Source: Leptotrichia shahii
GTDB lineage: Bacteria > Fusobacteriota > Fusobacteriia > Fusobacteriales > Leptotrichiaceae
Length of the DNA: 64,000 bases
NCBI RefSeq assembly: GCF_008327825.1
Contig: NZ_AP019827.1
Location: forward strand, 1,116,001-1,180,000
Reading direction: 5' to 3'
In this document: positions 1 to 56,760 of the stretch, piece by piece
Layout of the letters: every line of letters starts with the position of its first letter
How positions within the stretch are numbered: position 1 is the first letter of the stretch
Made by a program: the position numbers and the translations under genes
Notes under the pieces: generated by a model
Seen by the model: only the letters and a program-made list of their open reading frames with translations
Told to the model about the DNA's origin: nothing
Databases searched by the model: none

Positions 1-1152
1 CGAACTCAAATCCATATTTTTTAACACTCTCTCAAGTAAAAACGGCAATTTTTCAGGATTACAAGCAAAACATGGAATTCCAAGCGAAGCAATTTTTCCA
101 GACATTTGTGAGTCATAATAAGGTTTCCCATCTCCAGATATTGCTAAAAGACAAACTACTATTACTCCCGAATCTTTCATTTCTTGTAATCTTCTTAACA
201 TTTCACCACGATTCCCACTTTCAATTAAATCAGAAATTAGAAAAAATATTGTCTTTTTCGGATTTTCAATATATTTTGTACAATATTTAATTGATTTATT
301 GATATTTGTTCCACCACCTAGCTGAAATCCATATAGCAAATCAACTGGATCATCTGATTTTTCTGTCAAATCCACAATTTCAGTATCAAAAGCTACTACT
401 CGTGTTTTCAGTGAAGCGATACTTGCTAAAATACAAGCCATTACTGAAGAATAAATTACAGATTCTCCCATTGATCCACTTTGGTCAATATCCAAAATGA
501 CTGTAAATTTACTTGTGGGATTAACACTTGCTCGCTCGAAAAAATAATAATGCTCTGGAACAATTTTTTTTAATTCCCTATTGTAATTTTTTATCCCTCT
601 TCGTATCGTTGTTTTAAAATCCAAAGATGACGCAGATGGAATTGGCGAGTGTTGTTTCTTGTTAAGTGCTGCTCTAACTGCTCTTCTAATATCACTTTCC
701 AACAATTTATTAATTTCCTCTACAATTTTTTTTATGAAATTTCTAACACTTTCTTTACTTTTTTGTGGAATTTGCTCTTTCAAAAGCATAATTGTTGAAG
801 CAAGATTTATGTTAGGTTCTACTTGATCCAATATTTCAGGCTCAAAAAGCAATTGTTTCAACCCACATCTTTCCATCGCATCCGTCTGAATAATTTTCAC
901 CAATTCTTTATCAAACAAAGTCCTAACATCTCCAAGCCATCTACTAATTTGCGGATTAGATGGTCCTCGCCCAGCAGAATCTCCACCCATAAATTGTCCT
1001 GTCGGATTATAAATCGCATCCAACGCCTTATCCATCAACCAATCTTCCTCTGTAAAACTTGGAAGAGCTTCTGAATCCATAGACGAAAATTCTTCTTCCG
1101 TATCTTTTCCAAGAATTAATCGCCAACGTTTTATATCTTCTTTATAGTCCAT
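1..1152 (-). CDS. VWA-domain protein, YehP-like (partial, 3' end outside window)
   Basis: The gene starts at ATG 1152-1150 behind a GGGAGG ribosome binding site and stays open for 384 codons to the window edge, so the C-terminus is missing. The C-terminal half is a von Willebrand factor A domain. It has a MIDAS motif DQSGS (D223, S225, S227), a GGGTN segment with the metal-binding Thr near residue 282, and a following LISDL strand. The N-terminal ~200 residues are mostly helical and unassigned. VWA proteins of this type act with MoxR-type AAA+ ATPases in chelatase-like complexes. It is the last gene of a five-gene operon, 76 bp after the DUF5682 gene. E. coli YehP is a VWA protein of similar length. 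The substrate is unknown. Confidence 0.9.
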   Translation of the reverse strand, partial: MDYKEDIKRWRLILGKDTEEEFSSMDSEALPSFTEEDWLMDKALDAIYNPTGQFMGGDSAGRGPSNPQISRWLGDVRTLFDKELVKIIQTDAMERCGLKQLLFEPEILDQVEPNINLASTIMLLKEQIPQKSKESVRNFIKKIVEEINKLLESDIRRAVRAALNKKQHSPIPSASSLDFKTTIRRGIKNYNRELKKIVPEHYYFFERASVNPTSKFTVILDIDQSGSMGESVIYSSVMACILASIASLKTRVVAFDTEIVDLTEKSDDPVDLLYGFQLGGGTNINKSIKYCTKYIENPKKTIFFLISDLIESGNRGEMLRRLQEMKDSGVIVVCLLAISGDGKPYYDSQMSGKIASLGIPCFACNPEKLPFLLERVLKNMDLSS

Positions 1153-1228
1153 TTTTACACCTCCCTAATATTTTATTTTTTTATCAATTATCTAGTTTTT
1201 AATTTTTCTTTCAAAAAATTATTTTCAA

Positions 1229-3508
1229 TCAAATATCATCAAAATCAAATTCTTCTAATCCTGCAATTATTTCTTTCTCATTTTCTCCCAAATCATCATT
1301 TATTACAGCACTTACATCATTTTTATTCAAGCCCCATATTTCTGCAATATTTTCTGCAATATCATGCTTTTCATTTGAAGTAAAATCAGCAAAAGCTCTT
1401 CTTAAAAATAATAATGCTCTTTTAAATTCTTCCTCATCTAAGTTTGAAATATAGTTTTGGAGTTTTTCCCAAAGTCCAAGTCTTGCAATTAAGGTGTAAT
1501 GATTTTTCATCGATAGACCTTCAAACCAAGTTGCTCCTAAATCTGCGGGAACTCCTTTTGATAATCTTTTTTCGACTTCTTTTCCAAGTACTTCATTATC
1601 AATTTTTCCAGCTTCCAATAATATAGCCATTGCAAGTCCTGAGATTTTTGTATTTAAATCGTCTCTTTTTGAAATTTCTGAAAGAAGTGAATACCATCTT
1701 TCTCTATCTAAAAAATCATGATTTTCAATTACAGTATGCATTATTATTATACTTTTAGCTAGTTCTACTGCTGCATTATTGTCGCAAAAAGACTCGCTTG
1801 GCAATATTAAGCAAACTCTTAAAAAGAGTTGCTCAAGAATAGGAATCAGCACCTTTGTATCTAATTTTCTGATATCGCCATAACGAAGCATTAGTGATAA
1901 AGTTGACATCGTCTTGGCTATTTCATCAATAGGGACGTCGCCTGTTATGAAATTTTGCAATGCTTGAAACGCTTTTTCTAGTGCTTTTGGCATTCCGCAA
2001 TAGAAGGCATCTTTCACTATCTCTGCCATTTCTGACAATGTTTTTGCACCTTCTATTCTTTGCATCAATTCAAAAGCTGTTGCAAATTCAATTGTATCTC
2101 CTTTTAAGATTGTTTCCACAATTTCAATTTCTGTTTCTGGTTTCCATTGTAAAATCCATTCTTCTGCCCAAGTTGTATTTTCTTGGCGATTCCCAATAAG
2201 TTTTGCAAACGAAATATTCAAAACTCTCAATTTATGAAAAAAGAACGAACGTTCCAAGTCCATAAATGCTAATTTTTCTGATTGAACCCTTAATTTTTCC
2301 CTCAAATCTAATTTTATTTCTGTCGCTGTTAATGAACGATATTTTTCAAGTTTCAATTCCTTCAATAAATTGTAAAAATCAGACTGTATTGATGTTTGAA
2401 TAGCTTCCTTTGGAATACTTCCGATTTTTTTTCCAACTTCAACATTCGCCATTGCTAAAACTAGTTCTGAGTAGCTTCCGTGTGCCATACAAGTAATCGC
2501 TGCATCTTTTATATCCTTTAACGTCGGTATTTTCCCATCGTGTAAATTTGCCAATGAAGTTGCTAGATGAACTGCCTCGATAATTTGAGCTGACGATACC
2601 ATATTTCCATTTTCTCTTTGATATTCTGCAATTTTACTTAAATACATATATGTCGCAAAAAATGGGTCTTCTTTTTCTAAACCATTCCACAAAAATTCAT
2701 AATACCCTGGTGCCTTATTTCCAGCTCCATAATTTGAATAAGTCGATAGTTTATAATAAGAATAAGGCATTAACGTTTTTTTAGATTCTAATTTTGGTAA
2801 TTTTTTAATTTCCTTTTCAGTTAAAATAAATTTGCCACTTTCTATTCCTTCAACATGAAAAGCCCCAACAACCATAGCAATCTCATCCATTTTGTAGCCT
2901 TCTTTACACACATCGGAAACGACTTTACACATGTACGACTCTCTAATAATGTTTTTCGCATCAGACACCGTATTTGATAAAGTCAATTCTCTCAAATGTT
3001 TTCCATAATCTCTCGCTCCACTGCGATATGCCTTGTAATCAGAAGCCTGTTCCATTACCCTTTCCCAAAATACTTCATCATCTGAATCTTCTGAATATTC
3101 ATTAATTTTTCTATAAATGTAGGCATTCAAATTTCCCTCTGGATTCTCATCTAAATTTTTCTTTACACTTTCTACACCTAAAAAAATTGAAGACGGCAAA
3201 TCACAAAATCTGCACTCTACTCCATTTTCCTTTGCCCACAAAATAGTTTGATATTCTGGTGAAAACTCTGCAAATGGATACACTATTGTCTGAATAGGCG
3301 CTTCTAAAGTGTAAGCCATTACGGCAATTGGCGGGACGATATTTTTTCCAGTAATTTCGCTAATAAGCTCATTGAAATCAGAAGGCCCTTCTATCAAAAC
3401 AATTTTTGGCTGTATTTCATCTAAATAATCTCTCAAATAATGTGCTCCAGCTGGTGAAAAATGCCTAACTCCAAATATATTCGGTTTCACTTCATTTTGT
3501 TTTTTCAT
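1229..3508 (-). CDS. DUF5682 family protein, YehM-like
   Basis: This 759-residue cytoplasmic protein has no signal peptide or membrane segment. Its N-terminus shows the family signature GVRHFSPAGAHYL (residues 13-25), then VLIEGPSDF, and a later VGAFHVEGI. These resemble conserved patches of TraB/EreA-like enzymes, so a divergent hydrolase-type core is possible, but this is inference. E. coli YehM, encoded next to an AAA+ ATPase and a VWA protein, has about the same length. The C-terminal half is helical. The gene follows the AAA+ gene by 14 bp and precedes the VWA gene, so the three are probably co-translated parts of one machine. Biochemical function is unknown. Confidence 0.85.
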   Translation of the reverse strand: MKKQNEVKPNIFGVRHFSPAGAHYLRDYLDEIQPKIVLIEGPSDFNELISEITGKNIVPPIAVMAYTLEAPIQTIVYPFAEFSPEYQTILWAKENGVECRFCDLPSSIFLGVESVKKNLDENPEGNLNAYIYRKINEYSEDSDDEVFWERVMEQASDYKAYRSGARDYGKHLRELTLSNTVSDAKNIIRESYMCKVVSDVCKEGYKMDEIAMVVGAFHVEGIESGKFILTEKEIKKLPKLESKKTLMPYSYYKLSTYSNYGAGNKAPGYYEFLWNGLEKEDPFFATYMYLSKIAEYQRENGNMVSSAQIIEAVHLATSLANLHDGKIPTLKDIKDAAITCMAHGSYSELVLAMANVEVGKKIGSIPKEAIQTSIQSDFYNLLKELKLEKYRSLTATEIKLDLREKLRVQSEKLAFMDLERSFFFHKLRVLNISFAKLIGNRQENTTWAEEWILQWKPETEIEIVETILKGDTIEFATAFELMQRIEGAKTLSEMAEIVKDAFYCGMPKALEKAFQALQNFITGDVPIDEIAKTMSTLSLMLRYGDIRKLDTKVLIPILEQLFLRVCLILPSESFCDNNAAVELAKSIIIMHTVIENHDFLDRERWYSLLSEISKRDDLNTKISGLAMAILLEAGKIDNEVLGKEVEKRLSKGVPADLGATWFEGLSMKNHYTLIARLGLWEKLQNYISNLDEEEFKRALLFLRRAFADFTSNEKHDIAENIAEIWGLNKNDVSAVINDDLGENEKEIIAGLEEFDFDDI

Positions 3509-3522
3509 TTATTCCACCGCCT

Positions 3523-4623
3523 TTATTTAATAGCTTTGTTAAGTGCCTTACATTCTTTGTAAAGATCTAGCCATTCTGAACCTCGTTTTTTCATAATATT
3601 TTCTAAATATTCTTCCCAAATTTGCCCATCTTTACTATCTTCTTTTACTACAGCTCCCTGCAATCCTGCCGCCAAGTCATAATCTGATATCTCTCCATCC
3701 CCAAAACTTCCAGCTAACGCCATACTATTTGCTAAAAGTGAAATAGCTTCTGCAGTCGATAACACATTTGCAGTCGGCTTTATCTTTTGTCTTCCATCTA
3801 ACGTAACACCTTGACGCAATTCTCTAAATACTGTACAAACTTTTTCAATAACTTCCTCTTCAGGCAATTTCGCATTTAAATCCAAATTTCCTGCAAGTTG
3901 CGTAACTCTACTTCTAACAATATCTATCTCTGCTTCAAGTGTATTCGGACTTGGTAACACCACAATATTAAAACGTCTCTTTAACGCTGCCGACATCTCA
4001 TTAACTCCCTTATCACGAGTATTCGCAGTTGCAATAATAGAGAACCCTTTTTTAGCTGGAATTTCTACATTCAATTCAGGCACACTCATTCTTTTTTCTG
4101 ACAACAAAGAAATCAACGCATCTTGTACTTCTGATGCACAACGAGAAATTTCTTCCACTCTAGCAATCGCCCCATCTTCCATCGCTTTATAAATCGGACT
4201 TGGTATCAATGCATCTTTTGTAGGCCCTTCTGCAATCAACATCGCATAATTCCAAGAATATCTAATCTGCTCTTCAGTTGTTCCCGCTGTCCCTTGAATA
4301 ACTCGTGTCGAATCTCCATTTATCGCCGCCGTCAAATGCTCTGACAACCAAGATTTTGCAGTTCCCGGCTCCCCAATCAGAAGCAATGCCCTATCCGTAA
4401 CCAAAGTCGAAATTGCAATCTCAACCAATCTTTTATTCCCAATATATTTAGGCGTTATCACTTTTCTTCCAGCTTTACCTCCACAAATATATGTCAACAC
4501 TGACTTAGGTGACATTTTCCATCCAGTAGGTATTGGATTTTTTTCTGCCTTAATTAATGCATCAATTTCATCTTGAAACATCTGTTCCGCTGTTAATCTT
4601 TGTAATTCTTCTTTTTTAGCCAT
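3523..4623 (-). CDS. MoxR-type AAA+ ATPase, YehL-like
   Basis: This 366-residue protein is a single AAA+ module. Walker A is GEPGTAKS (84-91). The Walker B region is IARVEEIS (153-160), so the usual Asp-Glu pair is Glu-Glu. Sensor 1 is ATANTRD (N201), and a candidate arginine finger lies in LKRRFN. The sequence EVQDALISLLSE between them is typical of the MoxR/RavA lineage, whose members remodel proteins with VWA partners. The gene begins 3 bp after the preceding stop codon and is followed after 14 bp by the DUF5682 gene. E. coli YehL is the closest match I recognise. The acidic Walker B change may be a lineage trait rather than inactivation. Confidence 0.9.
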   Translation of the reverse strand: MAKKEELQRLTAEQMFQDEIDALIKAEKNPIPTGWKMSPKSVLTYICGGKAGRKVITPKYIGNKRLVEIAISTLVTDRALLLIGEPGTAKSWLSEHLTAAINGDSTRVIQGTAGTTEEQIRYSWNYAMLIAEGPTKDALIPSPIYKAMEDGAIARVEEISRCASEVQDALISLLSEKRMSVPELNVEIPAKKGFSIIATANTRDKGVNEMSAALKRRFNIVVLPSPNTLEAEIDIVRSRVTQLAGNLDLNAKLPEEEVIEKVCTVFRELRQGVTLDGRQKIKPTANVLSTAEAISLLANSMALAGSFGDGEISDYDLAAGLQGAVVKEDSKDGQIWEEYLENIMKKRGSEWLDLYKECKALNKAIK

Positions 4624-4626
4624 TTT

Positions 4627-6540
4627 TTACAACTCCTTCACTTTCATTCCATTATTTAACTTTTCTAGCCATTTTTCACATAAATTTATAGACATTCTTT
4701 TCATTTTTTTATCCATTTCAAATAATTCTTCAATTTGCTTTATTAATTCACTTTCAGATATAGGGACTTCATTTAAAATATATCCTATTGATCTTACTCT
4801 ATTATGTAATTTAGGTGCTTTTTTTTCTATATCTATCTTTCCTTTAAGAAAATCCTTATAATCTGTCCATCCCAATTTATTTAAGAATGCTATATCATCA
4901 TTGTAAGGAATACGAGAAAGAATAATATTATAGTAAAATGCTCCGTATTTTTCTTTCATTCCCTTTATATCTGGATTATATAAGCTCTTTAAATCTCTAT
5001 GATATGAACTGTAATAATTCCAATTTTCATAGAAATCATCTTCAATATTAAAGATTATATTATACCATTTTTTATCAAAACCATTTAACTTTATTTTCAT
5101 AACACTATAATCATTTATATTTTGCCAATATAAAATATATTCCTTATTTTCTTCATCATAGTGAATATGGAAAATTACATTAAATAATGTACTAAAATCC
5201 TCTTGAGCTTTAGCTTCTTCCTTATTTTTAGAAAGTTTATTATTAGCAAAGAATGTATGGAATAATTTTTTTATTCCTTTTTCATCTTTTCCTGCTCCTG
5301 CAAATTTAGAAAAATTCTTATATGTAGTTTCAGGTTTATCTTTAATAAGTGAAATTAAAAATTCTTGTTCTAAGAACTCTCCTTCATACTTTTTAGATAA
5401 TTCTTTTATTAAATCTATAATTTCCTTATTTAAGTTAGCTACTATATAGTAACTTAAAATTCTTTTTATCTCATCTTTATTATAAGGATACAACTCTCTA
5501 TAATAATCTAAATTTTTATTTATTTCTTTATTAAAACTAACTGAACATATTTTAGCAACTTCACTTTCAACTACTCTTCTTTCTTCTGCTGTCTTTAATG
5601 TCTTATTTTTTAATTCTACTATATATTCTTTAATAAAATTATTTAAATAATCTATTGCCCATTGTTGATTGGTAAATTGAAATGAATAAATATTGTCAAA
5701 AGGTTTCTTTTTAAAGAATTTATCCCATTCTTTTTCTGCTCTGCTATCATTCATCCATAATAAACTTACATAGGCTTTATTTTTTACACTACCCTTTTCT
5801 GTTTTTATTAAATCTAATATATAATCAATATTATCTTGGCAATATTTTAACTCACTTATCGCATTTTCCTTCATTTCCTTAGATCCATTCTCAATGCAAT
5901 ATTTGTAAAAATCATTTTCATCTTCTTTACAAATAGCTCCAATGATATCAAGCCTAGCAATCATCTCTCTTTTACCCTGCGGATTAAATCCATCTTTCAA
6001 TAGAGGAACTATATCCTTATCTTTCTTCTTTAGTTCCCTTGTTATTCTATCTGCAATTCCAGAATATTTATCAGAAAGTCCATCTATCATATAGCTTTTC
6101 AAACGAAAATCATCAAACATTTCAGGACTTGTTTCAAAAGCATTTTCTATAATAGCTAATCTTCCTCCACCTGTACCTGTGAAAGCACTTACTATCTGAC
6201 TTAACTCACTGTAATGAAGTTCTTGATAAAAATTTTCTTTTCCAGCAGTCGTTTCTATTTTTTGCAAATTATCACCTGAATAAGTTGTCGCTTGGGTACA
6301 AAGCACCGCATCAAGCAAAGCCAACAAATCTAAAAATAAATCACATTTATCTTCCTCATCGCCTTCAATCAATTTTTGCCCCATTTCATAAATTTGCTTA
6401 AATACTTTGGCAGCCGAAGCATATCCCTTCATTTGATCAACAGCTCTTTGCAAACGAAAATCATCTTTCACCAAATTTATCCCAACAATTGCCACATTTT
6501 CAAGCCTATTCTTCAATTCATATAACAGTTCTAAATTCAT
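4627..6540 (-). CDS. HEAT-like helical protein of the yeh-type operon
   Basis: I do not recognise a named family for this 637-residue protein. It is soluble, rich in Lys, Glu, Asn and Tyr, and consists almost wholly of predicted short amphipathic helices. Residues ~145-330 read like degenerate HEAT/ARM repeats, which usually make scaffolds. Residues ~430-560 are richer in aromatic residues and may form a separate domain. It lies between the SWIM gene (23 bp upstream) and the AAA+ gene (3 bp downstream), all on one strand. It is therefore very likely a subunit or adaptor of the same complex. It is the component with no counterpart I can name in the E. coli yeh set. Confidence 0.7.
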   Translation of the reverse strand: MNLELLYELKNRLENVAIVGINLVKDDFRLQRAVDQMKGYASAAKVFKQIYEMGQKLIEGDEEDKCDLFLDLLALLDAVLCTQATTYSGDNLQKIETTAGKENFYQELHYSELSQIVSAFTGTGGGRLAIIENAFETSPEMFDDFRLKSYMIDGLSDKYSGIADRITRELKKKDKDIVPLLKDGFNPQGKREMIARLDIIGAICKEDENDFYKYCIENGSKEMKENAISELKYCQDNIDYILDLIKTEKGSVKNKAYVSLLWMNDSRAEKEWDKFFKKKPFDNIYSFQFTNQQWAIDYLNNFIKEYIVELKNKTLKTAEERRVVESEVAKICSVSFNKEINKNLDYYRELYPYNKDEIKRILSYYIVANLNKEIIDLIKELSKKYEGEFLEQEFLISLIKDKPETTYKNFSKFAGAGKDEKGIKKLFHTFFANNKLSKNKEEAKAQEDFSTLFNVIFHIHYDEENKEYILYWQNINDYSVMKIKLNGFDKKWYNIIFNIEDDFYENWNYYSSYHRDLKSLYNPDIKGMKEKYGAFYYNIILSRIPYNDDIAFLNKLGWTDYKDFLKGKIDIEKKAPKLHNRVRSIGYILNEVPISESELIKQIEELFEMDKKMKRMSINLCEKWLEKLNNGMKVKEL

Positions 6541-6563
6541 TTCTTCTCCTTCCTAAACTCATT

Positions 6564-8003
6564 CTAAAATCCAAAACGAATAATTTTATCATTAGTTACA
6601 ATACTTTGTGCTTCAGCATAAATATTTCTACCTTCATAAAATAATTTTACGAACATCACTTGATTTTCCAAACATTCATTTGGCAAAAGTTCATAAAAAT
6701 CCTCTGAAAATACCTTGTTTTTAGTATGCTTAAGTTCTATCATTCTTTCATTTTTATCAACTAAAATATACCTTTTCATATTTTCCTCTTTAACAAACAT
6801 AATTTTTTCAAATTCTAGCAGTAAAGCCACTTCATTATTTGTCAAAATATTTTTAAGCTCATTTTTAGCTATCTTTACAGCCTGTTCTATATTTTGAGCA
6901 TGCTTTTTTATCTTTTTACAACAAGAACTTTCAATCTTATCAAAACTAGCCGCATCCCATCTTATTCTCTTATTAACACCACCTGGATAAAAAGTCAATA
7001 CAGGCACTGTCAATAACGAAAAGTTAGAATTTTCCTGCTTAATATATTTCATTGCCGAACGAGGTCTATAATTAGCAGTATATGACACTTCCCCACTTTC
7101 CAAGTCAATCCAGTATCCACAATCTCTAAAAATCTTACTAGCCTCATCATAATTTACTTCAAATGAAAGCTGCACCAATCTCGCATTTTCCTTTTTTAAC
7201 CCCAAATCATTCAACTGAGTTAACTTCCATACGCCTCCTAAATCCTCATACAACGTATTATCTGTCAATTCTGGATCATTCTTTTCAAGTTGCTCATTCA
7301 AAAACTCTCTTCCTTTTTTCTCAATTGCCCTCAATTTTTTCAGACATTCTAAAGCTGTCTGATAATGTATCTTATCCTGATCCTCTTTATATGCCTGAAT
7401 TTCCAAAAGTAGCCTTTGAAACAAAACTTGTGGTCCTGGCAAATAATAATCTCCCAATTGCTTTACAATATCTCTATACTCTGTAATCGAAATGCTTCCC
7501 ATTGCAGAAAGTCCAACTTTTAATAATTGCGAACTTATTTTCTTTATCAGATCTAGCCCTTCAAGTTGCTTTTTAATTTTCTTTGTTCTAGCTGCTTTAG
7601 ATGTCTTTGAGGGAGATTTCTTTTTAGTTTCCTTTTCCTCATTTGCCTTTTTAGCCTTCGATTTTTCCTTTTTTTCTCTCTTTGCTAAAATATCTTCTGG
7701 TATTTCACACTCCTCAAATTTTTCTTCTTTCAATATCTCAAATAACAAAGCTAATCCATGCTTACAAGGAAATTGTCTGCTTGGACAAGTGCATCGTGCA
7801 ACAGGATTTTCCTCATCAATAAAATCTACCGAAACCGTATAATTCGATTTTCCACTTCCTTTACATTCACCCATATACAAAGTATCATCAGCAGAACGCC
7901 ATAATCTCAAAAATGCCCCTTTATCGCAAAGTTTTTTTGCATTTGAAATTGCCGAAGCATTCGGAGCCATAGCAATAATCCTGCTCTCTTCTAATTTCTT
8001 CAC
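6564..8003 (-). CDS. SWIM zinc-finger protein, YehQ-like
   Basis: First gene of the five-gene operon. The start is GTG 8003-8001, chosen because a perfect GGAGG lies 8 bp upstream; the next ATG is 11 codons in. The 479-residue protein carries a SWIM zinc finger, CxCx6CxH, with ligands C71, C73, C80 and H82. A strongly basic Lys-rich linker follows (~residues 105-145), then a helical C-terminal region. SWIM domains mediate DNA or protein contacts. E. coli YehQ is a SWIM protein encoded with a MoxR ATPase, a YehM-type protein and a VWA protein. A substrate-recognition role for the AAA+/VWA machine is plausible but inferred. Confidence 0.85.
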   Translation of the reverse strand: MKKLEESRIIAMAPNASAISNAKKLCDKGAFLRLWRSADDTLYMGECKGSGKSNYTVSVDFIDEENPVARCTCPSRQFPCKHGLALLFEILKEEKFEECEIPEDILAKREKKEKSKAKKANEEKETKKKSPSKTSKAARTKKIKKQLEGLDLIKKISSQLLKVGLSAMGSISITEYRDIVKQLGDYYLPGPQVLFQRLLLEIQAYKEDQDKIHYQTALECLKKLRAIEKKGREFLNEQLEKNDPELTDNTLYEDLGGVWKLTQLNDLGLKKENARLVQLSFEVNYDEASKIFRDCGYWIDLESGEVSYTANYRPRSAMKYIKQENSNFSLLTVPVLTFYPGGVNKRIRWDAASFDKIESSCCKKIKKHAQNIEQAVKIAKNELKNILTNNEVALLLEFEKIMFVKEENMKRYILVDKNERMIELKHTKNKVFSEDFYELLPNECLENQVMFVKLFYEGRNIYAEAQSIVTNDKIIRFGF

Positions 8004-8075
8004 AATATAAACCTCCTTTATTTTTGTTAAAAATTTACTCGATTTTTTATTCAGATTTTTAATTCGTTTAGGTTT

Positions 8076-8104
8076 ATTATATCATAATTTTTTTATAAAC
8101 TAAA
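8076..8104 (-). promoter_or_regulatory. Putative promoter of the SWIM-HEAT-AAA-DUF5682-VWA operon
   Basis: On the minus strand an extended -10, TGATATAAT, occupies 8084-8076, about 75 bp before the SWIM start codon. The -35 region about 17 bp further upstream is poor (TTTAGT). Most of the strength would come from the TG-extended -10. No operator-like repeat is seen. Confidence 0.5.
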
Positions 8105-13402: not shown

Positions 13403-14437
13403 TTATTCTTTAGCTAGTGGATGTGTACTCATATAAATATCCCGCAACAAGGATTTGCTCACGTGTGTATAAACTTGTGTTACAGCAATGCTGCTATGCC
13501 CTAAAAGCTCCTGCAGATATCGAATATCCACACCATTATTTAAAAGTTCCGTTGCAAACGAATGTCTAAACACATGCGGTGTTATTTCCTTTTCTATTCC
13601 AGCCTCATGTGCATGTGCTGAAATCAGCCTTCTAAGTGAACGTGTCGTCAATTTTTTCCCTTTACTGTTTACAATAAGCACTTCCCTAGTATAATTAGCA
13701 TACTGCTTCTTTTTTTCTTCAATATATTTTATAAGCCACTTTTTCGCATTTTCGCTAAAAAAAGTAATCCGTTCCTTGGTGCCCTTTCCAATAACCCGAA
13801 TTTCCCGTTCTTCAATATCAATTATAAATTCACTTAAATTAATAAGTTCAATTGAACGAAGCCCGCTGGAATAAAGCAGTTCAATAATCAATCTATCACG
13901 AATTCCAGTAATTTTTTCTGTGCTTATAACGTGCCTTAATCTGTTTAAATCATCTCGATTAATCACATTTGGTAATTCCTTTTCAAATTTCGGAACATTT
14001 ATATAAGAAGCCTTATTTGTTTCAATAACTTTTATTTCTTGAAGATACTTGAAAAATGTCCTTAGTGCTGAAATTTTCCTATTTATGCTTCTTTTAGAAA
14101 CAGGCTTTAATTTTGCTTTTTTATTGGAAGTTTTCGTATCTTTTGTATTTTCATCTTTTTCAAGCCTTTTAGGAGAATTTAAATAGGCAATAAATGATCT
14201 GAAAGTCATCATTTCAATTTCCTCAAAATTATGAATTTCTTCATATTCCTCAAGATACTCCATAAACTGAAGCAAATCTCGCCGATAACCTCTAATTGTA
14301 TTGAAACTCTTACCAAGAATAACTTCTTCATAATATAAAAATTTATCTACATACATCACAAGATTTTCATTTTTTCTAATTTCTTGTACATCTTTATTAT
14401 TTTTTTTCGTCAATTCATCATTTATAACATCTTCCAT
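13403..14437 (-). CDS. Tyrosine recombinase, XerC/XerD family
   Basis: The 344-residue protein has a SAM-like core-binding domain (~25-140) and a catalytic domain (~155-340). All catalytic residues are visible: R194 in SGLRSIEL, K218 in GKGTKER, H288 and R291 in HVFRHSF, H314 in LGHSS, and nucleophile Y323. Length and motif spacing match chromosomal Xer recombinases, which resolve chromosome dimers. The core-binding domain carries an extra Lys-rich loop of about 25 residues (91-115). No integrase-associated att site, excisionase or mobile cargo is nearby, so a housekeeping XerC/XerA role is more likely than an element integrase. Confidence 0.85.
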   Translation of the reverse strand: MEDVINDELTKKNNKDVQEIRKNENLVMYVDKFLYYEEVILGKSFNTIRGYRRDLLQFMEYLEEYEEIHNFEEIEMMTFRSFIAYLNSPKRLEKDENTKDTKTSNKKAKLKPVSKRSINRKISALRTFFKYLQEIKVIETNKASYINVPKFEKELPNVINRDDLNRLRHVISTEKITGIRDRLIIELLYSSGLRSIELINLSEFIIDIEEREIRVIGKGTKERITFFSENAKKWLIKYIEEKKKQYANYTREVLIVNSKGKKLTTRSLRRLISAHAHEAGIEKEITPHVFRHSFATELLNNGVDIRYLQELLGHSSIAVTQVYTHVSKSLLRDIYMSTHPLAKE

Positions 14438-14575
14438 TTAAATTTCTCCAATTTTAAAAACTCTATTTTATAGTAAAACTGATTTAAAATCAAACTCAAA
14501 TCCTAAACTTAGTATGATTTTTAACAGTTCAACAATTTTGGTTAGGTTCCAATATAGTTATAAAAAAGCAAAAGA

Positions 14576-15271
14576 TTATAAACTAAATAATTTATCAAAA
14601 GCATTTTTTGAAAGCTCTATAAATTTTAAAAGTTCAGCTTGTGTAAACGTTGCTTCTTCTCCTGTTCCCTGCAGCTCGATAAATTCTCCCTTGTCATTCA
14701 TTACAATGTTCATATCCACATCAGCCCTTGAATCCTCTTCATATTCCAAGTCAAGGAGCAATTCGTTATGAACTTTTCCAACACTTATTGCCGCAACTTT
14801 TGATTTTATCGGAATCTCCTTTAGTTTCCCCTGATCAATCAACTTTTCAACTGCCAGTTCCAAAGCAAGATAAGCACCTGTTATCGAAGCTGTTCTTGTT
14901 CCACCATCAGCCTGAATTACATCACAGTCGATCATTACCGTTCTTTCTCCCAGCTTTTCCAAATCTATTACTGCTCTCAATGCCCTTCCAATTAAACGCT
15001 GAATCTCCATAGTTCTTCCGCCAAGTTTCCCTTTTGCAGATTCCCTTTGAACACGTGTATGCGTTGCTCTTGGAAGCATACTGTATTCAGCAGTTATCCA
15101 TCCAGAATTTGTTCCTTTTAGCCATCTTGGAATTTTATCTTCAATTGTAGCATTACAAATAACTTTTGTGTTCCCAAATTCAATTAGAACTGAACCTTCT
15201 GGATGAATGATATAATTTTTAGTTACTTTTACTTCTCGCATTTCATCATTTTTTCTGTTATTATTTCTCAC
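14576..15271 (-). CDS. rph: Ribonuclease PH
   Basis: The 231-residue protein matches RNase PH over its whole length. It has the phosphate-binding segment [17 protein letters not shown] (residues 76-92) and the active-site block [16 protein letters not shown]. RNase PH trims tRNA 3' ends phosphorolytically. The start is GTG 15271-15269, with AGGAG 5 bp upstream. No ATG suits the reading frame before residue 11. It lies 26 bp downstream of glyA on the same strand. Confidence 0.95.
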
Positions 15272-15297
15272 ATTTTCTCCTAATTTTTAATTTCTAA

Positions 15298-16542
15298 TTA
15301 TTTTCCCTTATAAAGTGGAAATTTTTCAGTTAATTTAAAAACTTGTTCTTTTACTTGGGCAATTTTTTCGCTGTCATTTATATTTCCCAAAACTGTCAGT
15401 ATAAATTGTGCCACTTGTCTTGTTTCATCTTCCTTAAATCCACGAGTAGTAATCGCAGGCGTTCCCAATCTTATTCCACTTGTAACAAACGGTTTTTCAG
15501 GATCATTTGGAATAGCATTTTTGTTACAAGTTATTCCAGCTTCTTCCAATTTTGCTTCAGCTAATTTTCCAGTAACTCCCATTGGACGTAAATCTACAAG
15601 CATTAAATGGTTGTCAGTTCCTCCACTTACGATTCTAAGTCCACCTTTTACCAGTTCTTCAGATAAAACTTTTGCATTTTTTGCAACTTGTTCCTGATAT
15701 TTTTTGTATTCAAGACTAAGTGCTTCTTTAAATGCAACTGCTTTTGCTGCGATTATATGAACCAATGGTCCTCCTTGTATTCCAGGAAATATTGTCTTGT
15801 CAATTTTTTTAGCAATTTCTTCATTGTTTGTCAAAATTACTCCACCACGAGGCCCTCTTAATGTTTTATGAGTTGTAGAAGTTACCACATCTGCATATTC
15901 CAATGGATTTGGATGAAGTCCAGCTGCAACAAGTCCAGCAATATGAGCCATATCCACCATTAAATATGCCCCAATTTCATCAGCAATTTCTCTAAATTTT
16001 TTAAAGTCTATTATTCTTGAATAAGCACTTGCTCCAGCAACTATCATTTTAGGCTTCTCTCTTAATGCGATTTCTCTTACTGCTTCATAGTCAATTAGTT
16101 CTGTTTCAGGATTTAATCCATATTCCAGCCCAATATAATTTTTTCCAGAAAAATTAATTTTATAACCGTGAGTCAAATGTCCACCAGCACTAAGACTCAT
16201 TCCCAAAATTTTGTCCCCAGCATTAAGCAATCCAACATAGACTCCCATATTTGCTTGAGATCCAGAATGTGGCTGAACATTGGCATATTTTGCCCCAAAT
16301 ATTTTTTTCAATCTTTCAATCGCAAGACTTTCCACTACATCAGCATTTACACATCCTCCATAATATCTTTTCCCAGGATAACCTTCCGCATATTTATTAG
16401 TAAATACAGAACCAGCCGCTTCCATCACAGCCTTTGAAACAAAATTTTCAGATGCTATAAGCTCAATTCCCTCTTCCTGTCTTTTTTCTTCTTCCGATAT
16501 CGCATTATACACTTCCAAATCAACATCTTTTATATAACTCAT
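15298..16542 (-). CDS. glyA: Serine hydroxymethyltransferase
   Basis: The 414-residue protein is full-length SHMT. It interconverts serine and glycine with tetrahydrofolate and PLP. The Schiff-base lysine is K226 in [13 protein letters not shown]. Other conserved segments include ELIASENF (27-34), [20 protein letters not shown] and [10 protein letters not shown] Met-Asp-Ala-rich C-terminal domain is present. It precedes rph. No riboswitch-like structure is seen in the 85 bp upstream. Confidence 0.97.
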
Positions 16543-22745: not shown

Positions 22746-24029
22746 CTATCTTCCTTTTCCAAAAATTACAATTGTAATTGTCTTTAACAATATTTTCATA
22801 TCGAAAATAATGTCATGATTTTTTATATAAAACAAATCATACTGCAATTTTCTGTAGGCATCCTCAACACTTGCTCCATAAGGATACATAACCTGTGCCC
22901 AGCCAGTAAGCCCCGGTTTTACAGTATGTCTTAAGTTATAGTACATAATTTCCTTTTCCAACTGCTTTATAAAAAACTCTCTTTCTGGACGTGGTCCCAC
23001 AAAGCTCATCTCTCCACGTAGCACATTCCACAGTTGCGGTAATTCATCAATCCTTGTAAGCCGCATGAATTTACCAAATTTTGTAACACGATTGTCATTT
23101 TTGGTAGCCCATTTTGGTCCATCCTTTTCCGCATCAGTTGTCATTGAACGAAATTTCACTATCTTAAACGGCTTGTTTCCTTCTCCAATTCTTTCCTGTA
23201 TAAAGAATACTGGCCCTTTTGACTCCAATTTTATTATTATAGCCGCAACAATCATAATCGGAATTACACAAATCCCAATTAACAGTGCAAAAATTATATC
23301 AAGAATCCGTTTTGCCTTTAAATTGAAACTGTTATAGTAAATTTCAAAACCTGTATTTTCCAAAAACCATTTTGGGCTCAAGTTTGAAACTGGCAATTTA
23401 TTCTCATACATTTCATAAAATTCCAAGTAATTATAATACTGCATTCCATTAAGTTTATACTGTAAAAGTTTATCCACAAGTTTTGTATCATATAAAAGAT
23501 TACTTGTAAAATCCACAATTATATCAACTTTTTTGTTTTCACAAAGATTTAACAATTTTTTTGTTAGAATGTTTATATCTTTCTTTTCTTTTAAAAAGTC
23601 TGATAATTTATATTGGCTGTCTTTTTTGATACTTTCCAGCAAATCATCTGTATATCCATTTTCTCCAACAAATACGATTTTTTTCTTTTCAGCCAGCCCA
23701 ATCATTACAATATAACGATATATAATTTGAAACATTGTGAGCAGCCCAAACAAAATTATTGCTTCATTCAAAAGAAATACTTTTAAAAATTTTGTAATCA
23801 TCACAAGAATAAAATTAATTGCAATTATAATCACAATATCTCGCAACTTATATCTTCCTGTCATATTATAAACATTCGCTACATAATAAATTACCATCGA
23901 ACAAGCAATTACAACCACATTTGTAAAACCAAGTCCACGATTTATAAGCAGTAATCCCACTAAATATACCGTAATTGTCAATATTCCAAATAAATAAGAA
24001 TAATTTTTTTTCATTCCACGTACAGCCAT
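22746..24029 (-). CDS. Polyprenyl-phosphate sugar-1-phosphate transferase (WbaP/WcaJ type)
   Basis: The 427-residue membrane protein begins with four hydrophobic helices (~8-125) and a small cytoplasmic domain containing VGENGY. The C-terminal bacterial sugar-transferase domain (~232-427) starts with a re-entrant helix. It carries [29 protein letters not shown] and [10 protein letters not shown]. Such enzymes start exopolysaccharide, capsule or O-antigen units by moving a sugar-1-phosphate to undecaprenyl phosphate. No complete polysaccharide operon follows, but an acyltransferase gene is upstream on the same strand. Confidence 0.92.
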
Positions 24030-24256
24030 CTTAAATTACACTTCCTTTTTTATTTTTTCTTTAATAATAAATTTATCTAAACAAAATCTTCCCACTAAAT
24101 AAATAAAATTTTCAAATCATAAATTTAATATATTTTATTATTTCCAGCTTTTCTCCTTTCTTCTATTCATCTCATATTATCTATAAAATTCAATTAATCC
24201 ACTATTCTTAATCTTCCTCAATCTTTTTACCACAAATCCTTAGTTGTCATAAAATA

Positions 24257-25372
24257 TTATTCCTTTTTGTAACATTTTCTATTTATACCAGTTAAAATAT
24301 TATACAGTATTTTTAATATTTCACTTGTAAAAAAAGATAATGCAAATACTATTACAAATGCAGTAATTATATATAAAAAATAATTCATTCTGGATTTTAA
24401 TATTCTTTCACAAAAAAATAAAAAAATTGGATGAATTAGATAAATATCATAGGTTTTCGCTGATATAGATTTTACAATACTTTTTACTTTTGGAAAAACT
24501 TTTTCTCCATCAAAAATATTTACAAAGAAATCATAAAGCAAAACTGCGGATATAAATACACTAATTGAATGATAATCATAAAAATAGTCAAAAAACTTTC
24601 CACTTGATTTTGTAAATATATACGTTAAAAAGACAGTTAATACAACTGCTATAAAAAAAATCGTGTATTTTTGCCATTTTTTCATATTCAAAGGTTTTTC
24701 TGCGAGCAGATAGCCAATCAAAAAGTAGCCGAGGTATTGCCCAACTGGAGAATATACTTTTATATTTTTCTTAAAAATCACATTTAGAAATGGTACTAAA
24801 ACCATAAATATTATCCATATAAAAACTAGATAATTAATGCTTTTTCTCTCAATTTTTACCATAACTTTTCGTAAAAATGGCGTTATCAGATAAAGTGACA
24901 ATATCATATAAATGTACCACAAATGATAGTAAACTTTACCTTGAAAAAAACTTGAAAAGAAATTATGGTAACTTTCTTTCTGGAAAAAAATTGAAATTAT
25001 AGTCTTATAAGTTGATTTTCTAAAAAAAACTGAGAATAATTCATTATCTTTCACATCTTTAAAAATTATTGTAAATATAAAAAAAATAACAGAGTATATA
25101 AAAAATTTTGGAATAATTTTTATAAATCTCTTTTTAAAAAATATCTTTACATCTTCATCTTTTCTCAACAAAAAAAATCCACTAACCATAACAAATATGG
25201 GTACGCATATTCTGCTAAGAGAATCTATGACATTTGCCATCATCCATCTATTTCCAGATATTTTACCATAACCATATAATTCACTTGCAACAATATGAAT
25301 AAATAAGACCATAATAATTGCAATACATTTTAAAATATCAAAGTTAAAAAATCTGTCCTTAGTTTTTACCAT
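24257..25372 (-). CDS. Acyltransferase family 3 membrane protein
   Basis: The 371-residue protein has about ten transmembrane helices. Its N-terminus FNFDILKCIAIIMVLFIHI contains the conserved His (H27) of the acyltransferase-3 family, after FDxLK/R. The C-terminus ends in helices typical of this family, with YDIYLIHPIFLFF. Members O-acetylate or otherwise acylate sugars of surface polysaccharides at the membrane. The gene is divergent from the methyltransferase gene at 25643 and upstream of the sugar transferase gene. A role in surface glycan decoration is likely. The exact acceptor is unknown. Confidence 0.85.
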   Translation of the reverse strand: MVKTKDRFFNFDILKCIAIIMVLFIHIVASELYGYGKISGNRWMMANVIDSLSRICVPIFVMVSGFFLLRKDEDVKIFFKKRFIKIIPKFFIYSVIFFIFTIIFKDVKDNELFSVFFRKSTYKTIISIFFQKESYHNFFSSFFQGKVYYHLWYIYMILSLYLITPFLRKVMVKIERKSINYLVFIWIIFMVLVPFLNVIFKKNIKVYSPVGQYLGYFLIGYLLAEKPLNMKKWQKYTIFFIAVVLTVFLTYIFTKSSGKFFDYFYDYHSISVFISAVLLYDFFVNIFDGEKVFPKVKSIVKSISAKTYDIYLIHPIFLFFCERILKSRMNYFLYIITAFVIVFALSFFTSEILKILYNILTGINRKCYKKE

Positions 25373-25566
25373 TTATAAATCTCCACATTTATGAAATTTT
25401 TTTAATAGAAATATAAATAATTTTACCATAGTTTAAGGTAATTTTCAATTGTTTTTCCTTTTTCAAATTTTATCTATTGTAAAAAATTAAAAAACAATAA
25501 TTATTTTATTCAAATCCTAAATTTACTTGGTTTTAACGAGTTTATAAAAATTTTTATAATAAAAAT

Positions 25567-25594
25567 TTGCATTTTAAATAAAAATGGGTATAAT
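25567..25594 (+). promoter_or_regulatory. Promoter of the methyltransferase/ABC cassette
   Basis: The promoter reads TTGCAT (25567-25572), a 16-bp spacer and TATAAT (25589-25594), about 49 bp before the start codon. A short inverted repeat, TTTGA-CAA-TCAAA (25607-25619), lies just after the expected transcription start and could be an operator; this is inference. Confidence 0.65.
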
Positions 25595-25642
25595 TCTATT
25601 AGATAGTTTGACAATCAAAATTTTTATAAGGAGGAATATACT

Positions 25643-26437
25643 ATGAAAATAAAACTTAATAATATTTCAGAAACTATGCTTATCACCTTATATATGCGGG
25701 CAACCGATGCCAAAAGTGAAAAGCCGATTTTAAATGACAAAAGATCTGAAGAAATAATCTCTCAAATAGATTATGACTTCTCGAAATTCAAAAGTGCATG
25801 GGCTTCGTATTATGGAGTACTTTCACGGGCGAAAGTGATGGATAATGAAGTAAAAAAGTTTATAACAAAATATCCAGATTGTGTAATTGTGTCGATTGGA
25901 TGTGGATTAGATACAAGATTTTTACGAATAGATAATGGAAAAATAAGATGGTACAATCTTGACTTGCCAGAAGTTATCGAAAAACGAAAGCTCTTTTTCG
26001 AGCCAAACGAAAGAGTTACAGATATTGCAAAATCTGCATTTGATTCAGCATGGACAAAGGATATTAAACTAGAAGGGAAAAAATTGCTTATTATTTCGGA
26101 AGGTGTATTAATGTATTTTGAAGAACAGCAAATTAAACAGTTTTTGGAAATACTAACTGATAATTTTGATTCTTTTGAAGCTCAATTTGACTTGCTTTAC
26201 AAAGGAACAGTTAAAATGAGTAAAAAACATGACACCTTAAAAAATATGGAAGCAAAATTTAGTTGGGGAGTAAAAGATGGAAGCGAAGTTGTAAAATTGA
26301 ATCCAAAATTAAAACAGACTGGACTTATTAATTTTACTGATGAAATGAAGCATCATCTTCCTGGCTGGAAAAAATTGTTTATTCCATTCTTTTACATTTT
26401 TAATAACAGACTTGGAATTTATACTTATGAAAAATAG
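25643..26437 (+). CDS. SAM-dependent methyltransferase, LCMT/TcmP-like
   Basis: The 264-residue protein belongs to the leucine-carboxyl-methyltransferase/TcmP group. Motif I is SIGCGLDTR (84-92), followed by WYNLDLPEVIEKR and IISEGVLMYF. An N-terminal helical cap precedes the SAM fold. The family methylates carboxylates or hydroxyls of small molecules such as polyketides. A strong GGAGG precedes the ATG. It is the first gene of a plus-strand cassette with two ABC half-exporters. It may modify a compound that the transporter moves. The substrate cannot be read from sequence. Confidence 0.8.
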   Translation: MKIKLNNISETMLITLYMRATDAKSEKPILNDKRSEEIISQIDYDFSKFKSAWASYYGVLSRAKVMDNEVKKFITKYPDCVIVSIGCGLDTRFLRIDNGKIRWYNLDLPEVIEKRKLFFEPNERVTDIAKSAFDSAWTKDIKLEGKKLLIISEGVLMYFEEQQIKQFLEILTDNFDSFEAQFDLLYKGTVKMSKKHDTLKNMEAKFSWGVKDGSEVVKLNPKLKQTGLINFTDEMKHHLPGWKKLFIPFFYIFNNRLGIYTYEK

Positions 26438-26486
26438 AATTATTTTTTAATTTATTTCCTTTTCTAAAATGAATGGAGGGATTATT

Positions 26487-28223
26487 ATGAAAGAATTGAA
26501 ATATTTGCTAAGTTTATCTGGTAAACATAAGATGAAGCTGATTTTTTCAGCAATATTCAGTATAATCGGTACAACATTATCTGCTGTGCCTTACCTTCTT
26601 GTGTATCAGATTGTTTTGGAACTTTTTAAGGCGAATATTGATTATTCAAGAATAAAGTTCTGTGTTTTTATTGCGATATTTTTTATAATTGTAAAGATAA
26701 TTATGCAGATTTTATCAGGTATTTTTTCACATATTGCGGCTTTCTCGATTTTGTACAAGATTAGGATTGACTTAATTGAGCATTTGTCAAAGCTGAATAT
26801 GGGGTTTTTTAAGAAAAATATGTCTGGAAAGCTGAAAAAGATTATTAATGAGGATATTGAAAAATTGGAACTCTTTATTGCACATCAGATTCCAGATTTG
26901 TCATCGGCACTTGTAACTCCGATAATATTTTTGGGGATTATGATTTACTTTAACTGGAAATTGACACTTGTTTTATTTATTCCAATTATTTTGAGCATAA
27001 TGGCACAGGGAAAAATGTTTCAAAGTTATGGGAGTCGTGTAGAACATTATTATACTCTTCTTGCAAACTTAAACGCTACTATTATGGAATACATAAATGC
27101 AATGAACGTTATGAAAGCATTTAACCTTACTGCTAAATCATTCAAGGATTATCGGGATATTACTCAGGAATATGCGGATTACTGGATTGAACTTACAGAA
27201 TTAAGTGTTCCGTTTTATTCAATTTTTCTCTGTCTGACTGATTCAGGGCTGCTTTTCATTATTCCTGTTGGCGGACTTATGCTGTTTTATAATCAAATTT
27301 CAGTATCTGTGTATATTTTATTTATTTTAATGAGTACAATTTTTTTAAGCTCATTAAAGGCATTATTTGACTTGGCACACCATCTTTCCGCATTAACTAA
27401 AGGGCTAGGAAAGATTATAGAAATTAATAGGGAACAGGAGCAAAAATCTGGAAACATAAATTTTTCTTCTAATTTTTCAGGTTTTATAAAATATGAAAAC
27501 GTAAATTTTGCATATAAAAATAAAAATGTTATAAATGACTTTTCCTTGAAAATAAAGACTGGAACCTCAACCGCACTTGTAGGGCCTTCTGGCTCAGGAA
27601 AAACAACGATAGGACTTCTGCTTGGAAGATTTTGGGATATAAATAGCGGAAAAATAACTATTGATGGAACTGATATTAAGGATTTTACTTACACAGGATT
27701 GGCTGACAATGTTTCATTTGTCTTTCAGGATACATTTATGCTTCACGATACTATTTTTGAGAATATAAGAATGGGAAAGGATTATTCGCTGGAAAAAGTG
27801 GAAAATGCTGCAAAAAAGGCACAAATTCATGACTTTATAATGTCTTTGCCTCAAAAATACGAAACTGTAATTGGTGAAGGCGGAATTAAATTAAGCGGTG
27901 GCGAAAAACAGAGAATTTCAATAGCTCGTGCAATTTTAAAAAATGCCCCAATTATCGTGCTGGACGAAGTTACTTCCTACTCCGACATTGAAAACGAAGC
28001 CAAAATTCAGGAGGCTTTGCGTACTTTATTAAAAGGAAAAACTGCCATTATCATTGCTCACAGGCTTTACACAATAAAAAATGCCGATAATATCGTTGTA
28101 ATGAATAAAGGACGTATTACCGAACAAGGTACTCACAAGGAGCTTCTGCAAAATAAGTCTGAATACTGGCATTTATGGAATTTATATAGCGATAATGATT
28201 TGATGGAAAATAAGGAAATTTAG
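26487..28223 (+). CDS. ABC transporter, fused permease and ATPase (subunit 1)
   Basis: The start is set at ATG 26487, 7 bp after GGAGGG. An in-frame ATG 18 bp upstream precedes this ribosome binding site. The 578-residue half-transporter has a six-helix type IV (exporter-fold) membrane domain (~15-300) and an ATPase domain (~335-575). Walker A is GPSGSGKT (366-373), the signature is LSGGEKQR (469-476) and Walker B is IIVLDE. The D-loop reads SYSD (497-500) instead of the usual SALD. Similar pairs include siderophore importers such as YbtPQ and IrtAB as well as drug exporters. It pairs with the next gene. Confidence 0.88.
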   Translation: MKELKYLLSLSGKHKMKLIFSAIFSIIGTTLSAVPYLLVYQIVLELFKANIDYSRIKFCVFIAIFFIIVKIIMQILSGIFSHIAAFSILYKIRIDLIEHLSKLNMGFFKKNMSGKLKKIINEDIEKLELFIAHQIPDLSSALVTPIIFLGIMIYFNWKLTLVLFIPIILSIMAQGKMFQSYGSRVEHYYTLLANLNATIMEYINAMNVMKAFNLTAKSFKDYRDITQEYADYWIELTELSVPFYSIFLCLTDSGLLFIIPVGGLMLFYNQISVSVYILFILMSTIFLSSLKALFDLAHHLSALTKGLGKIIEINREQEQKSGNINFSSNFSGFIKYENVNFAYKNKNVINDFSLKIKTGTSTALVGPSGSGKTTIGLLLGRFWDINSGKITIDGTDIKDFTYTGLADNVSFVFQDTFMLHDTIFENIRMGKDYSLEKVENAAKKAQIHDFIMSLPQKYETVIGEGGIKLSGGEKQRISIARAILKNAPIIVLDEVTSYSDIENEAKIQEALRTLLKGKTAIIIAHRLYTIKNADNIVVMNKGRITEQGTHKELLQNKSEYWHLWNLYSDNDLMENKEI

Positions 28224-28235
28224 GGGGTGCAGATA

Positions 28236-29975: not shown

Positions 29976-29978
29976 TAT

Positions 29979-30030
29979 AAAATATACCCAATCTTGAATT
30001 TTTCGATCAAAAATTTGGGTATATTTTTAT
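29979..30030. terminator. Bidirectional terminator between ABC cassette and symporter
   Basis: AAATATACCCAA (29980-29991) pairs with TTGGGTATATTT (30014-30025), with a 22-nt loop. T-rich runs follow on the plus strand. On the minus strand the stem itself ends in A/T pairs followed by TTAAATTAG-type sequence. It separates convergent genes. Confidence 0.75.
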
Positions 30031-54809: not shown

Positions 54810-54903
54810 TATTATTTCTCCATTTTTTATTTCTTTACTTTATAAATTTCCCTAACATATTTTCCAATCTAAATTTTTCATAATTCAAAATTACTTTATT
54901 ATT

Positions 54904-54923
54904 TATTCAATTATAATTGAATA
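54904..54923. promoter_or_regulatory. 20-bp perfect palindrome between truA-like and malic enzyme genes
   Basis: TATTCAATTATAATTGAATA reads identically on both strands. It lies in the divergent intergenic region, about 95 bp from the truA-like start and 134 bp from the malic enzyme start. A TATAAT core occurs on both strands inside it. It looks like an operator; no regulator is assigned. Confidence 0.45.
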
Positions 54924-55005
54924 TATTTTATCATTTTCTCCAATAAATGTATAGGTACTCTCCTTTAATTTAAAGTAAAAAAAAATCAATTTCTCTATTA
55001 TTCCA

Positions 55006-55014
55006 TGTTATACT
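55006..55014 (+). promoter_or_regulatory. Putative extended -10 promoter of malic enzyme
   Basis: TGTTATACT gives an extended -10 (TG at 55006-55007, TATACT at 55009-55014), 43 bp before the start codon. The matching -35 position is weak. The 5' leader would be short. Confidence 0.45.
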
Positions 55015-55056
55015 TGACTTATCAAAATTATTTTAAAAATTTAGAGGTGATTATTT

Positions 55057-56691: not shown

Positions 56692-56760
56692 TTAGCTTAT
56701 TGATTTTTCTAACTTTTTAAAGTAAAATGAAAATATATAAAAATATTAGGAGATGATTTT

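Follow-up and report, generated by a model that had tools for sequence, protein, structure and literature searches.

A YehL-type MoxR/VWA operon of Leptotrichia shahii with a TraB-like domain in its DUF5682 protein and a variable helical protein in its second slot

Remodelling of a bound protein by a MoxR-type AAA+ ATPase and a VWA-domain partner is a common scheme (PMC7159879), and pairs of this kind include RavA-ViaA and CoxD-CoxE (PMC3893208); what we attribute to these two papers, and below to PMC6254334 and PMC8533742, refers to the accessible portions of their texts. YehL is one of seven named MoxR subfamilies with roles called unclear (PMC3893208). Its partners are present in nearly all E. 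coli genomes examined, and their function has so far not been assigned. Here we analyze an operon of this type in Leptotrichia shahii, contained in a 64,000-nucleotide (nt) stretch of contig NZ_AP019827.1 (positions 1,116,001 to 1,180,000; "the window"). From window position 8003 to 1, the list of open reading frames (ORFs) places five co-directional genes on the minus strand, encoding in order a SWIM zinc-finger protein, a helical-repeat protein, a MoxR ATPase, a DUF5682 protein and a VWA protein, with intergenic gaps of 23, 3, 14 and 76 nt (Table 1). A first-pass annotation of this DNA had pointed to the tight co-directional spacing, which the ORFs confirm, and to a SWIM finger of the form CxCx6CxH, a MoxR-type ATPase and a VWA metal ion-dependent adhesion site (MIDAS), all of which were borne out by Pfam and by reading of the sequences.

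We propose, with a probability of roughly 0.45, that the operon encodes a target-selective remodelling machine of the YehL MoxR/VWA type, with a TraB-like and perhaps hydrolytic subunit and an exchangeable recognition solenoid. The helical protein of the second slot (gene 2), probably together with the SWIM protein, would bind the target; the MoxR ATPase and the VWA protein would pull on or reshape the bound target or complex; and the TraB/Tiki-fold domain of DUF5682 would give the output, most likely a hydrolytic cut of the peptidase or esterase-like kind, with the C-terminal solenoid of DUF5682 as a docking arm. The products would thereby act as a complex whose target is chosen by gene 2 and may change quickly in this lineage. 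Such a machine is directly testable, since the TraB/Tiki-like domain points to three residues and a mosaic segment of gene 2 to a part for swapping. The unit is built on the known YehL type; its TraB-like DUF5682 domain and exchangeable second slot are new here in that we did not find them in print in the literature searched, where no paper naming DUF5682, DUF5691 or PF18934 was found.

Both this operon and E. coli yehLMPQ link a YehL-like MoxR gene to VWA and DUF5682 genes, with a SWIM gene in the cluster. The MoxR protein aligns with YehL over 362 positions at 40% identity (4e-81; a pairwise comparison, not a subfamily tree), the VWA protein is 30% identical to YehP, and the DUF5682 protein is 21% identical to YehM, with the matching size seen in the first pass (759 amino acids, aa, in both). 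Of the four matches to yehLMPQ that had been claimed, these three are clear homologues; the SWIM protein and YehQ align without significance (E 0.67), and the two share only the zinc knuckle, which gave the best-aligned stretch. The clusters also differ in order, SWIM standing last and DUF4132 genes first in E. coli, and DUF5691, a family that we met in the second slot of other genomes, was not found in the E. coli control genome. In both E. coli strains viewed (L217, L218), yeh genes are annotated as broken: yehQ and a DUF4132 gene in MFDpir, and yehL and yehM in AR202.2. This second layout, with DUF4132 genes near MoxR, DUF5682, VWA and SWIM, was seen in annotated Iodobacter, Agrobacterium, E. 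coli and Streptomyces. Because a Chitinophaga locus (L052) has DUF5691 and also, 19 nt after VWA, a Pfam-checked DUF4132 gene of 974 aa (13434-16358), DUF4132 is better seen as a partner that recurs than as a simple slot replacement. In L043 and L049, ORFs similar to that gene begin 20 and 24 nt after VWA.

The MoxR-vWA ternary conflict systems likewise combine MoxR, a CoxE-like vWA and a further component, but their third components are VMAP, iSTAND and FtsH (PMC7159879); Pfam, whose coverage of all these is uncertain, named no VMAP, iSTAND, FtsH or beta-propeller domain in the five proteins. The window MoxR scores 28.6 bits against bpMoxR (cut-off 27) and far better against AAA_5, and the terms SWIM, TIKI, YehL and DUF4132 do not occur in the accessible text of PMC7159879. 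RavA-ViaA and CoxD-CoxE share the MoxR/VWA pairing but belong to other MoxR subfamilies, with no DUF5682 partner described in the accessible text of PMC3893208. A sequence-based structure search with the VWA protein gave weak, unconvincing hits only.

The CoxE-type Pfam assignment of the VWA protein, and the fact that known MoxR/VWA pairs act in this way (PMC3893208, PMC7159879), would fit a maturation chaperone like CoxD/CoxE or NorQ/NorD, inserting metal or a cofactor into one enzyme. We consider this reading distinctly unlikely. MoeA was found in 0 of 13 genomes of the genus, against 11 of 14 controls, which indicates that no molybdenum-cofactor enzyme is present there, and outside the unit no flanking family recurred in more than 11 of 73 loci (clusters unannotated). 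Because MoeA is absent from all 13 genomes, maturation of a molybdenum enzyme is unlikely in this lineage, and the metal insertion suggested in the first pass is to that extent unsupported. A molybdenum link through MolR/DUF4132 was rejected on the same count.

Co-occurrence of the neighborhood across genomes had been named beforehand as the refuting test of a fixed five-gene unit. With a 13-row DUF5682 alignment we scanned for relatives and took the best 80 of at least 575 in named genomes, a sample that was picked by DUF5682 and is biased toward likeness to the window (a first contig scan with a single window protein had found no relative). After 17 of the 80 named loci were left out of the counts for flanks that were too short, 63 were assessable, and profiles of the five proteins were run over their ORFs, the starts of which were set mechanically. 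All five slots were co-directional in 55 of the 63, one of them (L027) with the gene-2 family in slot 2; two loci had all five with SWIM and DUF5691 on the opposite strand, and six were without one or more. Because 55 of the 63 assessable loci keep all five slots together, the five genes are a real conserved unit, more than chance, and the unit stood; this, with the YehL and YehP homology, supports the first-pass reading as a fixed unit and a remodelling machine. The commonest order was SWIM, DUF5691, MoxR, DUF5682, VWA. Natural fusions joined SWIM and DUF5691 into one ORF in nine loci (L015, L018, L036, L059, L061, L078, L080, L089 and L091) and DUF5682 and VWA in one (L023); public records also carry such fusions in their annotation. 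Where DUF5682 was seen alone, in six loci, a DUF5691 gene lay elsewhere in all six genomes, with MoxR adjoining it in two and SWIM in one; the separation is firm for four of the six (L050 and L087 lie at contig ends, and several are metagenome bins). The window DUF5682 is an 82% match to a Fusobacterium vincentii record.

Within this unit the second slot is the variable one. In a pairwise table of 54 loci, from which fused, cut, doubtful and fusobacterial loci were left out, DUF5691 showed the lowest conservation among the five proteins in 1414 of 1431 locus pairs and in 64 of 66 close pairs, and median identities across phyla were 69.3% for MoxR, 58.3% for VWA, 44.0% for DUF5682, 35.5% for SWIM and 23.5% for DUF5691. 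Compared with six relatives of the window, MoxR was 99.5-99.7% identical, VWA 98.2-99.0%, SWIM 91.6-96.2% and gene 2 only 66.5-82.1%; DUF5682 was 97.2-98.4% identical to that of five relatives, G009 being omitted for its broken DUF5682 frame. The divergence of gene 2 is concentrated. Codons 114-395 show 62-63% aa identity and a synonymous divergence (dS) of 0.96-1.09 in all four relatives whose gene 2 is full-length, and the flanks of this segment show 95-99% identity and a dS of 0.03-0.14. The borders of the segment, 282 codons long, were drawn by eye once the profile was seen; the change is sudden and coincides with the repeat region, and along the unit in the four compared copies a comparable jump was confined to it. 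Two more relatives have a 365-aa version of gene 2 that matches the common one as far as about codon 300 and diverges beyond it. The first-pass annotation had cast the zinc-finger protein as the recognition part; the sequence data speak rather for the helical protein of slot 2 as the variable and probably target-choosing component.

The 637-aa product of gene 2 has no Pfam family, and searches for DUF5691 in the window's genome and in G012 gave no hit. In the window's relatives, gene 2 makes up a family of its own, which also extends to five genomes reached via the class of L027 or via L026 and L027. Judged by sequence, most phyla have DUF5691 in slot 2, and the window's lineage and Clostridia have a helical protein there with no detectable relationship to it. 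Identification of gene 2 as a DUF5691 protein was rejected on the missing Pfam hit, a failed profile comparison and a genome without DUF5691; the "D5691" label given to slot 2 of L002 and L014 was circular, the window protein having served as seed. The earlier description of gene 2 as HEAT-like depends on a thin predicted model, from 3 sequences, with a mean predicted local distance difference test score (pLDDT) of 60.8, better over about residues 160-430. The model is almost all helical, and its top structural matches are mostly designed HEAT-like alpha-Reps at Z of about 11, a level to which a shared arrangement can bring repeat proteins.

The TraB-like domain of DUF5682 was absent from the first-pass annotation. 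The predicted model of this protein, built from 69 rows, is confident (pLDDT 89.9; predicted template modelling score 0.85). For residues 3-229 of that model, three chains of ciliate complex IV led the structural matches, with Z of 10.1-10.5 over 194-202 residues, and each is named TraB family protein in the sequence database; the next best row, at Z 9.1, falls on the C-terminal solenoid. An hhalign comparison with four PrgY/TraB-type proteins scored 34.8 (P 1.8e-4, probability 48.5, 190 of 223 columns), and among the controls 60 column shuffles scored no higher than 18.0, the reversed profile scored 14.1, and the SWIM, MoxR, VWA and DUF5691 profiles lay at 14.1-15.2. Repetition with six proteins gave P 2.3e-4 over 194 columns; a mixed set gave P 0.0068, and a five-protein set headed by a gumN-like row gave P 1.2e-5, chiefly over the second motif. 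As to the composition of these sets, 9 of 14 loci in the TraB set of the second class failed the motif filter, and the four-protein comparison used four of the five that were left; another TraB set took 6 of the 14 loci. H16, E40, R189, E190, G215 and H218 do not vary across 13 rows that were collected by similarity and not by motif, nor across the 69-row DUF5682 set, and H16, E40, R189-E190 and G215-x-x-H218 align with the histidines, glutamate and Arg-Asp motif of TraB. A Pfam scan gave no TraB hit in the DUF5682 protein, a sequence-based structure search with it gave nothing significant, and ChaN-type relatives (PF04187) were found in 0 of 61 genomes.

By profile, predicted fold and the residues H16, E40 and H218, then, the N-terminal domain of DUF5682 resembles TraB proteins of the Tiki superfamily. 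It would share with the TraB/PrgY/Tiki superfamily the fold of residues 3-228 and the His-Glu-His residues, and differ in sitting within a 759-residue protein that has a helical solenoid and is tied to an AAA+ operon. A His-Glu pair has been proposed to activate water in the Tiki superfamily (PMC6254334); because some members of the superfamily are without catalysis (PMC6254334), we infer hydrolytic activity in DUF5682 only as a "perhaps". The domain might instead bind or sequester a peptide without cutting it, the gene 2 mosaic being ordinary recombination without selection for a new target. Among non-catalytic members is PMT, which is without the 2His/2Glu motif of the superfamily (PMC6254334). 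Mosaic genes do arise through ordinary recombination. We rate this alternative as unlikely, however, given that the His-Glu-His residues of DUF5682 are invariant and that a jump of such degree was seen, in the four copies compared, only in the gene 2 segment.

Several observations weigh against a TraB-like, target-selective machine. On the side of DUF5682, the hhalign match is moderate (probability 44-49); with the model as query, Foldseek by itself had no match reaching E 0.001, the ciliate chains standing at E 0.3 or worse; the gumN branch of the TraB_PrgY_gumN Pfam family has no significant match to DUF5682 (P 0.04 and 0.09); and the invariance of R15, H16 and P19 in the 69-row set was partly imposed by the search pattern. 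On the side of slot 2, the gene 2 model is weak; hhalign of gene 2 with DUF5691 gave probabilities of 1.9 and 1.4, so that kinship was undetected; five close pairs from other phyla showed raised slot-2 divergence and no comparable sharp-edged segment; and rapid evolution is common among solenoids, so that weak conservation is no proof of target choice. The joint presence of DUF5691 and DUF4132 in L052 means, finally, that slot exchange with DUF4132 is not simple.

The unit occurs in 6 of 13 genomes of the genus, one of them with a broken DUF5682, and in 11 of 98 genomes of the phylum; four of these are distant copies, three of which have only MoxR, DUF5682 and VWA in the stretch seen. In the class of the L027 genome, 4 of 391 genomes were over the cut-off. 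In G078, which belongs to another genus, MoxR, DUF5682 and VWA share 96.5-97.6% DNA identity with the copies in the window, against 83% for ychF; in G001 these three genes share 96.7-97.5%, against 87%; and nearer relatives have ychF at 95-97%, a level as high as that of the unit or higher. The unit core therefore looks to have been exchanged across the genus border, with ychF, a thin yardstick, as the sole reference. Its location varies, with ychF next to it in three genomes and other sites occupied in the rest that were placed.

We considered whether the unit is a conflict system that uses gene 2 to recognize phage or other foreign proteins, with remodelling or cleavage of these proteins or of a target in the cell. 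Patchy presence, the apparent transfer and the mosaic gene 2 would suit it, as would three kinds of neighbors: an AbiD/Abi_2-type gene on the same strand between DUF5682 and VWA in G009 (L124 4999-5928), where DUF5682 is in two pieces; genes for a D12 methyltransferase, DpnII, an Mrr-type nuclease and an N6/N4 methyltransferase in Fusobacterium vincentii SB055 (L014 1050-4416), ending 98 bp before SWIM; and TnpB-like ORFs near several copies, one of them Pfam-checked. PADLOC models, however, name none of the five proteins (best E-value 0.0059 among six proteins scanned), and PADLOC treated 92 near and 92 far flanking proteins alike (57 and 44 families, respectively, none with more than 2 of 92 members; a coarse comparison, with no count of members with any hit). 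The wide DUF5682 tree follows phyla, the yeh cluster is present in 5155 of 5426 E. coli genomes (at least 80% of yehLMPQ), no relative was found by these scans in viral collections, including IMG/VR, and the evidence of transfer is one housekeeping gene. The conflict role raised in the first pass thus keeps the apparent transfer, the mosaic gene 2, AbiD and the restriction-modification neighbors on its side; it lacks any sign of defence enrichment across phyla, and the cluster is in most E. coli. On balance we find it possible but doubtful.

A more specific form, in which a YehL-type MoxR/VWA motor of an undescribed conflict system feeds or switches a TraB/Tiki-type hydrolase and is aimed by a HEAT-like solenoid with a recombination-swapped target-binding segment, motor and hydrolase staying almost constant, appears to us unlikely. 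If the conflict reading were true, an aimed AAA+/hydrolase system would be added to bacterial immunity. We note some further features of these copies. The Fusobacterium vincentii SB055 record is labelled a plasmid though it is 2.1 Mb long. The sole match in a phage collection, MT835988.1 (L024), has MoxR, DUF5682 and VWA and looks like a bacterial contig. In G006 (L123), two near-copies of a dTDP-sugar epimerase-like gene (4587-5192 and 14323-14934) flank the unit, together with a TnpB-type gene, and may mark an insertion. In G011 (L122 5118-5930), a 270-aa ORF without a Pfam or PADLOC hit lies between DUF5682 and VWA.

The same distribution bears on a stress or protein-quality machine with a housekeeping-like role. 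The 69-row DUF5682 tree is mostly phylum-wise, requiring by a quick method 16 changes over 11 groups (minimum 10; 42.9 on average after shuffling, with 0 of 200 shuffles as low), and this and the wide presence in E. coli fit such a role, as do the DUF4132 proteins near the E. coli-type cluster, which have been tied to DNA-damage regulons (PMC8533742). Set against these are the patchiness in genus and phylum, the low count in the class of the L027 genome, and 65 upstream regions without a LexA-type or RDRM box. A role in stress, also raised in the first pass, is in our view possible but unlikely. SOS control was rejected: six simple LexA/RDRM-type patterns gave 0 hits in the 65 regions, with a shuffled expectation of at most 0.5.

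Table 1. Window coordinates of the five genes and of the segments discussed in the text
Feature	Position	Strand	Basis
Gene 1, SWIM zinc-finger protein, 479 aa, GTG start	6564..8003	-	ORF; Pfam SWIM 5.2e-06; same slot in related loci
SWIM zinc finger, residues 55-88 (C71-x-C73-x6-C80-x-H82)	7740..7841	-	Pfam match range; residues by sequence reading
Gene 2, helical-repeat protein, 637 aa, slot 2, not detectably DUF5691	4627..6540	-	ORF; without Pfam family; own family in relatives; model and fold matches
Gene 2 mosaic segment, codons about 114-395	5356..6201	-	62-63% aa identity, dS about 1 against four relatives; flanks 95-99% aa
Gene 3, MoxR-type AAA+ ATPase, YehL-like, 366 aa	3523..4623	-	Pfam AAA_5 5.9e-39; 40% identity to E. 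coli YehL
Gene 4, DUF5682 protein, 759 aa: TraB-like N-terminal domain, middle region, C-terminal helical solenoid	1229..3508	-	Pfam 1.3e-142 (residues 26-724); model
Putative TraB/Tiki-like domain of DUF5682, residues about 3-228, with H16, E40, R189-E190, G215-A-x-H218	2825..3502	-	Profile, fold, residue conservation
Gene 5, VWA (CoxE-type) protein with MIDAS	1..1152	-	Pfam VWA_CoxE 2e-38; 30% identity to E. coli YehP

Gene 5, whose MIDAS reads DQSGS in the sequence, comprises 384 aa in the window and runs 30 bases past its edge; in the whole genome it is 393 aa long (L002 11152-9971). The neighbors on both sides of the operon are housekeeping-like by eye, among them a YchF-like GTPase and a ThiF-like enzyme. 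Elsewhere in the window, the GC skew at 24001-30000 and 54001-58000 deviates from an otherwise strongly negative trend.

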